Origin: Methanolobus vulcani
GTDB taxonomy: Archaea > Halobacteriota > Methanosarcinia > Methanosarcinales > Methanosarcinaceae
DNA: 64,000 nucleotides
Direction: 5' to 3'
NCBI RefSeq assembly: GCF_006546655.1
Contig: NZ_VIAQ01000019.1
Location: 124,001-188,000, forward strand
Shown: positions 3,656 to 8,072 of the stretch, one piece after another
How the letters are laid out: the number at the start of each line of letters is the position of its first letter
How positions within the stretch are numbered: position 1 is the first letter of the stretch
The notes under the pieces: model-generated
Seen by the model: the letters and a program-made list of their open reading frames with translations, nothing else
Told to the model about the DNA's origin: nothing
Database searches by the model: none
Made by a program: the position numbers and the translations under genes

Positions 3656-4129
3656 CTAAGATTGTGCTATCCCCCGCCTTACATCAACTGCAGGACCTCT
3701 GTCCATGCGAAGTGCTTCTGCAGGTGACAATAATAGTTGCCCTGTTGCAAGTATTTCGTCTTTTCCATCAACTATGATAACCTCGTCTCCTGCTCTTAGT
3801 TCCGGGTCAACCGCAACTACGTGTTTTGCAAAAGCAGTCTTTCCTTTTGATACAAATGGAACTGCATCATCACAAATTACAACTCTTGATGCAGGCTTTT
3901 CAAGACCCTGATGAAGAGCAGCAGCTCCATCTATACTGAGAGTGAGCATTCCATCCTTTGCACGAACTGTTGCCATGTGCTTTCCGTTGAACTGAACCTG
4001 TCTTACACGTTTTGTCCTGGAAAGCAGGAATGTGACACCATCAGGGAAAAGAATATCTCCACAACCCTTTCCGAACTGGATATCGGCCATTGTCCTGACT
4101 CTAATGAGATTTTTATCTGCATTGCTCAT
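3656..4129 (-). CDS. PUA-domain RNA-binding protein
   Basis: 157 residues. The C-terminal ~75 residues match the PUA fold (ASRVVICDDAVPFVSKGKT, then VDPELRAGDEVIIVD and ILATGQLLLS), the RNA-binding module of archaeosine tRNA transglycosylases and pseudouridine synthases. The N-terminal half, with a Cys-rich FGKGCGDILFPDG segment, resembles the pre-PUA domain that precedes PUA in archaeal TgtA. The protein therefore looks like the detached C-terminal module of archaeosine transglycosylase or a free-standing relative; no catalytic TGT domain is present. It is a single gene flanked by intergenic DNA, and the function is inferred as tRNA or rRNA binding. Confidence 0.75.
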   Translation of the reverse strand: MSNADKNLIRVRTMADIQFGKGCGDILFPDGVTFLLSRTKRVRQVQFNGKHMATVRAKDGMLTLSIDGAAALHQGLEKPASRVVICDDAVPFVSKGKTAFAKHVVAVDPELRAGDEVIIVDGKDEILATGQLLLSPAEALRMDRGPAVDVRRGIAQS

Positions 4130-4239
4130 AGTTGCTAAATAAAGTATAAGTTTTAAAATGATAGCGGTTAAATTGATATCAGATTATATCTTCTTTAAGG
4201 AAGTGAACCTTGTTTGCTATATAAATAATGTCAAACAGA

Positions 4240-4250
4240 TTTATATATAA
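4240..4250 (+). promoter_or_regulatory. TATA box for the candidate RNA at 4268
   Basis: The run TTTATATATAA is a near-consensus archaeal TATA box. Its centre is about 25 bases upstream of 4270, where the first perfect stem of the candidate RNA begins, the usual TATA-to-start distance. A second TATA-like run lies at 4217-4228. No open reading frame of any quality follows on this strand. Confidence 0.6.
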
Positions 4251-4267
4251 TAATGACCAATTATAAG

Positions 4268-4365
4268 TAGAGGAAACGGAAACTACTGCTTGTAACTGTA
4301 TTCAAGGTATAGTAACTGTAACCAAGCAAAACCATTCATCCCCTCAAACATGTCTCCGTTTCCTC
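4268..4365 (+). ncRNA. Candidate structured small RNA, about 100 nt
   Basis: The intergenic region 4130-4507 contains no credible ORF but shows nested pairing. P1: GAGGAAACGGA (4270-4280) with TCCGTTTCCTC (4355-4365), 11 perfect pairs. P2: TGCTTG (4287-4292) with CAAGCA (4323-4328). P3: ACTGTA (4295-4300) with TATAGT (4308-4313), closed by a 7-nt loop. A CU-rich single-stranded stretch (about 4329-4352) lies between P2 and the 3' strand of P1. A TATA box sits ~25 bases before P1 and a hairpin plus T-rich tail follows. No Rfam family was recognised (not a tRNA, and too small for RNase P or 7S RNA). Promoter, fold and terminator together support an independent transcription unit; expression is unproven. 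Confidence 0.6.
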
Positions 4366-4366
4366 G

Positions 4367-4395
4367 TTGCTCAATTGAAGAGCAAGACTTCTTTT
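4367..4395 (+). terminator. Hairpin and T-rich tail after the candidate RNA
   Basis: TTGCTC (4367-4372) pairs with GAGCAA (4380-4385) around a 7-base loop and is followed by a pyrimidine-rich, T-rich tail (to about 4395). It begins two bases after the last base of P1, as expected for the 3' end of a short RNA gene. Confidence 0.5.
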
Positions 4396-4507
4396 ATGTT
4401 ATTTAGCTAACTAGTGTAAACTCTGTGTATCTGTGTACTAAAGATAATTTTAAAATTAGAAGTTATTCTGAGAAAACTAAAAAAGAAAAATTAAGCCAAA
4501 GGTCAGT

Positions 4508-5974
4508 TTAACCTTTGACAACTCCCATTGGAAGTACACGTGCAACTTTTGTAGCAATACCAAGGTTGTGTACGACATCCACGACATCACTGCTGGATTT
4601 GTAGACCTCTGGTGCTTCCTCGGCTATGAGTGATGGCTGGGTTGCTCTTACAATGATTCCCTCTGACTTCAGCTCATTCTGGATATCTTCACCACGCAGT
4701 TCTTTCTTAGCCCTGCTTCGGCTCATAACCCTTCCGGCACCATGACAGGCACTGCCGAAGGTCAGTTCCATTGCAGCAGGACAGCCTTTTAGCACATAGG
4801 ATGCTGTACCCATACTTCCAGGTATAATGACCGGTTGACCTATATCCTTGTAAGCTTCCGGAACTTCAGGATGACCTGCAGGGAATGCTCGTGTGGCACC
4901 TTTCCTGTGGACATAGACTTCTTTTTCCTCGCCATCGATCATGTGTTTCTCAAGCTTTGCAACATTGTGAGCAACATCATACACAAGATCAAGTCCCAGG
5001 TCACCGTGCTGAGACTTGAAGAACTCATCAAAAACCTCACGTGCCCAGTGCATTATCATCTGGCGGTTTACCCATGCATAATTTGCAGCACATATCATTG
5101 CTTTGAAATAATCCTGGGCTTCCTCTGAACTTGCAGGAGCACATGCCAGTTGTTTGTCAGGCAAAGGAATCTTGTATTTCCTGGAAGCCTGTGTGAGCTT
5201 CTGAAGATGGTCAGTACATATCTGGTGACCTGCACCACGTGAACCGCAGTGGATCATAAAAGTGATCTGTCCTTCCCTAAGACCAAAAGCCTTTGCAGCT
5301 TCCTCGTCATAGACCTTATCCACATACTGCACTTCTAGGAAATGATTTCCGCTTCCAAGAGTTCCTATCTGTGGACGACCTCTTTTACGGGCTTTCACAC
5401 TAACCTTTGAAGGATCAGCACCTGGCATCATCCCATTGCTCTCGCAATGACTGAGATCTCCTTGCATACCATAGCCATTCTTTACAGCCCAGTTCACTCC
5501 GTGGACGAATACATCATCCAGTTCCTCATCGTTAAGCCTCATGCGACTCTTGGAACCTACACCGGAAGGAATAGCCTCGAACAGTGCATCAAGAAGTTCA
5601 GGTAGCCTTGGACGAACATCATCCTCCATGAGATTGGAACGTATAAAACGGACTCCGCAGTTGATGTCAAAACCTACACCACCCGGGCTTATCACACCTT
5701 CATCCTTATCGAAAGCTGCAACTCCACCAATGGAGAAGCCATAACCTAAATGTGCATCCGGCATTGCCATGGAGTATTTCTGGATTCCCGGCAGAGATGC
5801 CACGTTTGCAACCTGATCGATGGTTTCAGGTTCCAGAATTTCAAGGAGAGGGGTTGATACGAAAATCCTTCCCGGAACATTCATCCCTGGTTTGTAATTG
5901 TCGGGCACCTCCCATATATTATCATTTACTTTGGTGAGAATATCTAAAATTGATGTTTCATTTTCATCTGACAT
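4508..5974 (-). CDS. rtcB: tRNA-splicing/RNA ligase RtcB
   Basis: RtcB joins 2',3'-cyclic-phosphate (or 3'-phosphate) and 5'-OH RNA ends using GTP and Mn(II), chiefly to ligate tRNA exons after intron cleavage in archaea. The ~488-residue protein has the metal/guanylate-binding signatures: [49 protein letters not shown] and the terminal [10 protein letters not shown] motif carrying the guanylated histidine. No intein interrupts the gene. An in-frame ATG at 6007 exists, but homologues begin near the ATG at 5974 (M-S-D-E-N-E), preceded by AGAGGAAAT. Archease, its activator, is encoded just upstream on the same strand. Confidence 0.95.
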
Positions 5975-6098
5975 GTTATTTCCTCTTGTCTTTCTTCCTT
6001 CAAGCATCTATAATGGAGATTATGTGCTCTAATAGTATGAATATATTGATAATAAGAAATTGATTGACCCAATGGCTGGAAATAGGTAAACTGAAAAT

Positions 6099-6542
6099 TC
6101 ACGTATCCACTGTTGCCTGGATCATCCAGCCATCATCTGATTTCTCGATCCTCATGTCGTTATAAGTGGCAGCCTTTACTTCGGTATCAAAAACATGAAC
6201 GGAAAGATCAATGGTTTCTCCATAGAGAGTGGCTTTAAGGGAGCATTCTTCATCGCCAACGGTTATTTTGTTGACTTCCACCCGACCAAACACCATTTCA
6301 TCTACTTCAAATACGAAAAGTATCTCGGAAAGCCAGTCAAAGAGCAGGCTGTCAAGGTCAAAGGATGTCAGTTCAACAGTTACTGACAGGCTGTTGTTAA
6401 CAGAAGAGGTTTCCACCATTACGTTAAGCATGGCAAGGGCTGCATTCTCAAATGCCTGCTCAAGGCTTTTCCCGTAAGCCCGAAACCTTACATCAGCAGT
6501 GTGTTCCAGATACTCGTAGTCGAGACCCATCTCAGATGACAT
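6099..6542 (-). CDS. Archease, RtcB activator
   Basis: 147 residues, typical archease size. Archease accelerates RtcB guanylation and multiple turnover. Visible hallmarks are the N-terminal EHTADVRFRAYG motif (metal-binding aspartate and histidine), the LFDWLSEILFVFE helix and the C-terminal EVKAATYNDMRIE block followed by a terminal aspartate. It lies about 120 bases upstream of rtcB on the same strand, the conserved archease-ligase arrangement, and is probably cotranscribed with it. Confidence 0.93.
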   Translation of the reverse strand: MSSEMGLDYEYLEHTADVRFRAYGKSLEQAFENAALAMLNVMVETSSVNNSLSVTVELTSFDLDSLLFDWLSEILFVFEVDEMVFGRVEVNKITVGDEECSLKATLYGETIDLSVHVFDTEVKAATYNDMRIEKSDDGWMIQATVDT

Positions 6543-7995: not shown

Positions 7996-8072
7996 GCCTC
8001 AGTGGCTCAGCCCGGCAGAGCGAGTGATTTGTAATCACTAGGTCGCGTGTTCAAATCACGCCTGAGGCTCCA
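7996..8072 (+). tRNA. tRNA-Thr (anticodon TGT)
   Basis: Full cloverleaf on the plus strand: acceptor GCCTCAG/CTGAGGC, D arm GCTC..GAGC, anticodon stem AGTGA/TCACT with loop TTTGTAA (anticodon TGT, threonine), T arm GCGTG-TTCAAAT-CACGC, discriminator T at 8069 and an encoded CCA (8070-8072). No intron. U73 fits archaeal tRNA-Thr. Its last 15 bases recur at 14867-14881 as part of a longer duplication. Confidence 0.96.

Follow-up and report, generated by a model that had tools for sequence, protein, structure and literature searches.

To our knowledge, few archaeal small RNAs (sRNAs) have a known target. Trans-encoded sRNAs of bacteria that act on transcription factor leaders expose a C/U-rich seed against a G-rich leader near the Shine-Dalgarno (SD) sequence and have more than one target. 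The closest characterized RNA to the one described here, sRNA162 of Methanosarcina mazei, is 191 nt long, contains three stem-loops and a 39-nt linker that is variable, is encoded between MM2441 and MM2442, and was found only in Methanosarcina by BLAST (PMC3510493). Through its single-stranded region, it pairs close to the ribosome-binding site of a transcription factor mRNA, for which translational repression was proposed (PMC3510493). In Methanolobus psychrophilus R15, 195 intergenic noncoding start sites were mapped by dRNA-seq, some of them cold induced (PMC5378194).

Here, we analyzed a 64,000-nt stretch of the Methanolobus vulcani genome (the window), in which the gap between a PUA domain gene and rtcB is predicted to encode an RNA. 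With a probability of roughly 0.78, we read it as a trans-encoded base-pairing sRNA with its own promoter that most likely lowers translation of two mRNAs. Like sRNA162, it is of the archaeal trans-encoded type, with an unpaired region directed against a regulator mRNA (a pairing predicted here). Unlike sRNA162, it is ~100 to 125 nt long, carries an invariant pairing segment, lies at the PUA/rtcB locus, and has tandem leader hairpins as predicted targets; going by the published description, these differences in length, fold, and synteny set it apart from the sRNA162 family. With the bacterial sRNAs it shares the seed type and, by prediction, the multiple targets, and it differs from them by its tandem hairpin sites and its archaeal promoter. 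The R15 sRNAs come from the same genus; the main text of that study gives no sequence or target for the PUA/rtcB locus (PMC5378194), and the RNA may be among the 195 mapped start sites as an unannotated one. Whereas sRNA162 is reported from Methanosarcina only, the RNA, its sites, and their joint changes span many cultured genera (RNA and target sites occur in Methanolobus, Methanococcoides, Methanohalophilus, Methanosalsum, and Methanomethylovorans), so that both the predicted pairing and the compensatory variants found in nature are directly testable.

A first-pass annotation of the window had pointed to a 378-base gap between the PUA gene and rtcB, and this gap indeed extends from 4130 to 4507, bounded by the start of the PUA gene (4129, minus strand) and the stop of rtcB (4508, minus strand). 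The divergent neighbor (3656 to 4129, minus strand) encodes a TGT_C2 and PUA domain protein (Pfam PF14810 and PF01472), and the convergent neighbor (4508 to 6007, minus strand) is an ORF whose name, rtcB, follows that annotation. All features of the small RNA gene lie on the plus strand. Its TATA box (TTTATATATA, 4240 to 4249) is adjoined on the 5' side by a putative BRE-side motif (GTCAAACAGA, 4230 to 4239), which reads TCGAACA in many relatives in the alignment of homologues. A TATA-like element recurs at matching spacing, 30 to 33 nt 5' of the first base of stem P1 in 52 of 52 homologues and 30 to 31 nt in 51 of them. Promoter spacing and the covariance model match described below predict a transcript from 4269 to 4395, which would start at ~4268 to 4271 and end at ~4388 to 4395 in a T-rich tract.

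Stem P1 joins GAGGAAACGGA (4270 to 4280) to TCCGTTTCCTC (4355 to 4365) by perfect pairing. In the predicted fold, it is accompanied by stem P2 (UGCUUG, 4287 to 4292, pairing with CAAGCA, 4323 to 4328) and by the inner hairpin P3 (4295 to 4313, arms 4295 to 4302 and 4306 to 4313). The stretch between P2 and P1 (4329 to 4351) is unpaired in this fold and contains the single-stranded segment AAACCAUUCAUCCCCUCA (4329 to 4346), predicted to pair with the targets. A terminator-like 3' hairpin (4367 to 4385, arms 4367 to 4372 and 4380 to 4385) is followed by the T-rich tract CTTCTTTT (4386 to 4395), the putative termination site. The predicted folding energy, −32.4 kcal/mol, was lower than that of 200 of 200 dinucleotide shuffles (z = −2.9). 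Hence, the TATA box, the exact 11-bp stem, the inner stems, the C/U-rich unpaired stretch, and the T-rich 3' hairpin reported by the first-pass annotation were all recovered, and the C/U-rich stretch coincides with the predicted target-pairing region. A small ORF inside the RNA (ATG at 4350) was rejected because it lacks conservation among homologues. A second conserved TATA-like element (4218 to 4227), ~22 nt 5' of the TATA box, may serve the divergent PUA gene as its promoter.

DNA searches revealed the small RNA in 27 of 27 Methanolobus genomes and, elsewhere in the family, in at least seven genera; it was not found in genera taken as Methanosarcina. A covariance model built from 25 homologues and run on 150 genomes of the order returned a single strong match per genome in 50 genomes of the family (E values of 2e-7 or better), with the M. 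vulcani match at C16:128269-128366, equivalent to 4269 to 4366 of the window (E = 7.6e-21). At all 39 loci checked, including two truncated on one side, the RNA sits between the PUA gene and rtcB. Among 32 distinct homologues, 97.2% of the cells of P1 and P2 are paired, a value that none of 500 shuffles reached and that is biased upward by derivation of the stems from the same sequence family. Much less subject to this bias are two-sided changes, which were found at six pairs of P1 and P2 (reached by 0 of 500 shuffles; at most three with a slid partner). About 98% of the P2 cells are paired in the same 32 homologues, and 5 of the 11 pairs of P1 show two-sided compensatory changes, so that the stem formed by 4270 to 4280 and 4355 to 4365 displays the covariation within the Methanosarcinaceae that had been named as a check on the candidate.

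Across genera, conservation is seen in P1, P2, and the C/U-rich segment, and the most invariant part of the RNA, the block AAACCAUUCAUCCCCUC, lies within the unpaired region. P3 is conserved within close relatives only and is replaced or deleted in other genera (absent in L032 and L165); the 3' hairpin shows only partial conservation, among close relatives, and a T-rich tract usually still follows. Stem covariation, the fixed TATA distance, synteny, and the lack of an Rfam match all support the earlier proposal of a candidate small RNA without a known family. By these sequence comparisons, the small RNA gene in the gap is genuine and conserved, with a length of about 100 to 125 nt. Just 5' of the P2 3' arm, the motif ACUGUAA (4314 to 4322) is near invariant across genera and is unexplained by target pairing. 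This motif and the conserved stems would suit a structural or protein-binding RNA devoid of any base-pairing function, a reading we regard as extremely unlikely given that an invariant single-stranded 17-mer shows complementarity to two conserved leaders as well as trans-covariation (see below).

The first-pass annotation had seen no resemblance to tRNA, 7S RNA, RNase P RNA, or snoRNA, as borne out by tRNA, Rfam, and C/D box searches. Rfam covariance models yielded no family even at E < 5, except for one spurious plastid match, and neither 7S/SRP RNA, RNase P RNA, nor any other Rfam family at gathering score; the tRNA search found no tRNA at the small RNA locus. Archaeal C/D and H/ACA guide RNAs are likewise small and stable; the Methanolobus RNA differs in that 4261 to 4400 contains no C box (RUGAUGA) or D box (CUGA) and in that it has no Rfam match, including H/ACA models (H/ACA RNAs were searched by Rfam models only). 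Its promoter lies away from its predicted target, and an exposed segment is complementary to a leader across species, as in trans-encoded sRNAs. On the basis of its sequence, the RNA is previously uncatalogued and a new family among trans-encoded base-pairing sRNAs.

The complement of AAACCAUUCAUCCCCUC forms one or two hairpins with the loop UCUGAGGGGAU in the 5' untranslated region (5'UTR) of a winged-helix gene, ~87 kb from the small RNA gene on the same contig. With 0 or 1 mismatch, the M. vulcani genome holds only three noncoding copies, namely the RNA gene and two tandem target sites outside the window (C16:41156-41170 and C16:41192-41206); the single further match falls inside a coding region. 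At up to one mismatch, the pattern is also present in 49 of 60 relatives, against one match in total for the reversed control, and no random 120-nt window shares more than 10 nt with the complement. The leader has a TATA box ~107 nt before its first site and an SD sequence at about −11. Since the sites are thus ~100 nt downstream of the TATA box and upstream of the SD, they belong to the mRNA. Equivalent leader sites were found upstream of the winged-helix orthologue throughout the family.

The pairing hairpins are located at about −70 and −35, and pairing is predicted to extend over 14 to 20 nt. Predicted RNA-site duplexes reach about −31 kcal/mol in M. vulcani, and the best duplex ranges from −28 to −38 kcal/mol in 50 of 50 genomes with both RNA and target. 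At least one site has 13 or 14 of 14 positions paired in 49 of these 50, the exception (G024) having insertions in its sites. Mismatches at site 1 comprise one A·C in Methanolobus and two in Methanomethylovorans. Across relatives, the hairpin arms vary while the loop stays constant. An upstream ORF at the second site was rejected, as its distance and frame relative to the main start vary.

The target protein (~190 to 330 amino acids) has an N-terminal beta-rich domain and a C-terminal winged helix, often separated by a long P/Q-rich linker. The latter resembles RosR/PadR, Fur, and MecI/BlaI DNA-binding domains. A Foldseek search returned generic winged helices only, all at E > 0.001, and the model had a pTM of 0.42; for this reason, we claim only the fold class. 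No solved relatives were found by sequence, an NCBIfam search gave nothing significant, and no Methanosarcina record occurs among the relatives of the gene, the nearest named ones being from M. vulcani and M. bombayensis. The neighbors of the gene in Methanolobus and Methanococcoides are uvrB and a divergent AAA-ATPase gene (names from sequence inspection), the latter of which looks like a proteasome-activating nucleotidase.

RNA and leader have also changed in step. In Methanosalsum natronophilum (G119), with CCGTTCATCCCCTCAGA in the RNA and TCTGAGGGGATGAACGG at the second site, G-C has replaced an A-U pair through changes in both; the 5' arm of the target hairpin has also changed, to CCGT, and pairing with the RNA extends over 17 bp. 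An ANME-2-type family (f3) combines the element CCATCCATCCCC with the site GATGGATGG, where A-U became G-C at a different position, and its variants CCGTCC and CTATCC (one genus) keep pairing through G-U. Only two independent cases of strict double change are known here; because the RNA core is near invariant within the family, trans-variation is mostly one-sided (G-U or A·C). The RNA and the winged-helix gene occur together in 50 family genomes and are both absent from 20 listed ones; these genomes do not count as 70 independent observations, as a single loss or two may account for the joint absence. Because complementarity between RNA and mRNA is combined with change in step across species, the small RNA very probably regulates the winged-helix gene by base pairing.

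The same shared sequence could instead be a DNA operator at which the winged-helix protein represses the RNA gene along with its own, with complementarity of the transcripts being incidental. Such a reading would fit a target gene that encodes a winged-helix protein, and autoregulation is common. However, the sites lie ~100 nt downstream of the TATA box, within the leader, as hairpins with changing arms; the copy in the RNA has no dyad and differs at its edge (CUCAAA, not CUCAGA, in most); the sequence occurs at only two loci per genome; and the P1 and P2 stems of the RNA covary. We therefore consider an operator very improbable and regulation by RNA pairing the better account.

A second likely target, predicted from complementarity, is the mRNA of a coiled-coil protein (G000:C1:56372-57247), whose leader carries GAUGAGGGacUGAAUGGaUUUGC directly 5' of the SD sequence GAGG. 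The block GAGGG..GAAUGG.UUUGC, directly 5' of the SD, is the best conserved part of this leader in 26 Methanolobus genomes, and its most variable base or bases fall in the predicted bulge. Complementary blocks are also present in three further genera (G029, Methanosalsum, in which GGGAUGAAUGGUUUGC pairs over 16 bp, and Methanohalophilus), so that the predicted pairing reaches the ribosome-binding site in four genera; in Methanococcoides, the block is degenerate. The protein itself is conserved (L417 to L446; MNTENRDFVIERLER..., with a C-terminal EYI(I/V)AE motif) and is absent from genera taken as Methanosarcina. The ftsZ start GAGGGGAUGAAUG also matches the RNA and was rejected as a target, since Methanosarcina-like genomes without the RNA share a nearly identical SD, which explains the match without the RNA.

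With two tandem sites per winged-helix mRNA and a second conserved target, the winged-helix leader might act mainly as a sponge that titrates the RNA away from its real targets among other mRNAs, such as that of the coiled-coil gene. We judge this quite improbable, because, within the family, presence and absence of the RNA coincide exactly with those of the winged-helix gene, and because the winged-helix sites covary with the RNA.

In the proposed mechanism, the small RNA would be transcribed from its own promoter and fold into the closing stem P1 and the inner stem P2, exposing the C/U-rich segment between P2 and P1. In vivo, this segment would pair with the winged-helix leader hairpins at about −70 and −35 and with the coiled-coil 5'UTR directly beside the SD, and the duplexes would most likely hinder ribosome binding and lower translation of both mRNAs. 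In the winged-helix mRNA, the nearer duplex would extend to about −20, and predictions of SD accessibility show no consistent change; a switch based on SD sequestration was rejected, as site occupancy neither hides nor frees the SD consistently in predicted folds. Pairing might also activate, if the RNA opened the leader hairpins or blocked a repressor or decoy at the GAGGGGAU loops, so that the regulator would be made only with the RNA. Tight conservation of the leader loops even without a known RNA partner, and the raised SD accessibility predicted upon site occupancy in some genomes, would agree with activation. We nevertheless regard it as rather unlikely, since the predicted change is inconsistent across genomes and the coiled-coil duplex abuts the SD, which favors occlusion. 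With repression as the preferred reading, the small RNA is a candidate regulator for the conserved, uncharacterized winged-helix gene and for the coiled-coil gene.

Related elements were observed in other lineages and loci. Outside the RNA-bearing family, the winged-helix gene of other ANME-2, Methanoperedens-like, and Mnemosynella genomes is likewise preceded by leader hairpins with a GAGGGGA loop (L259 to L275, L234 to L241, and L347 to L361). No partner RNA was found in these genomes with the GAGGGGAU hairpin; 12-mer matches in f2 and f5 (Methanoperedens-like) were mostly coding, and one candidate, in G040 (L281), was rejected for lack of conservation. As the hairpin is present in families without a detected partner RNA, it may have a second, RNA-independent role, and GAGGGGAU leader hairpins are possible ribosome-standby or kissing sites.

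In f3, the pairing segment is found not beside rtcB but immediately before ribD-like and ribH-like riboflavin genes (L040 to L043, L099, L100, L155, L156, L158, L159, L301, and L363 to L366), is enclosed by a stem of the GGAATTCGGGA/TCCCGAATTCC type, and is preceded by a TATA-like box. It is tempting, if doubtful, to imagine a lineage-wide circuit in which one RNA reads tandem GAGGGGAU loops and coordinates the winged-helix regulator with the coiled-coil protein, the pairing segment having moved in ANME-2-type relatives into the ribD/ribH leaders, which would then act in trans on the regulator. Methanolobus contains a second small-RNA-like element (G000:C2:61655-61739, L147; relatives L148 to L154), in which a stem GGGTCTGA/TCAGACCC (GGGCCTGA/TCAGGCCC in L154) encloses TGTACATCCCCTCAAACAAG; the core CATCCCCTCAAAC is common to this element and the small RNA adjoining rtcB.

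Elsewhere in the window, a tRNA gene is present at 7996 to 8069 (Rfam RF00005). Directly upstream of rtcB, on the same strand, lies an archease-like ORF (6099 to 6542, named by sequence inspection only); archease beside rtcB is the arrangement expected for an RNA-ligase pair.
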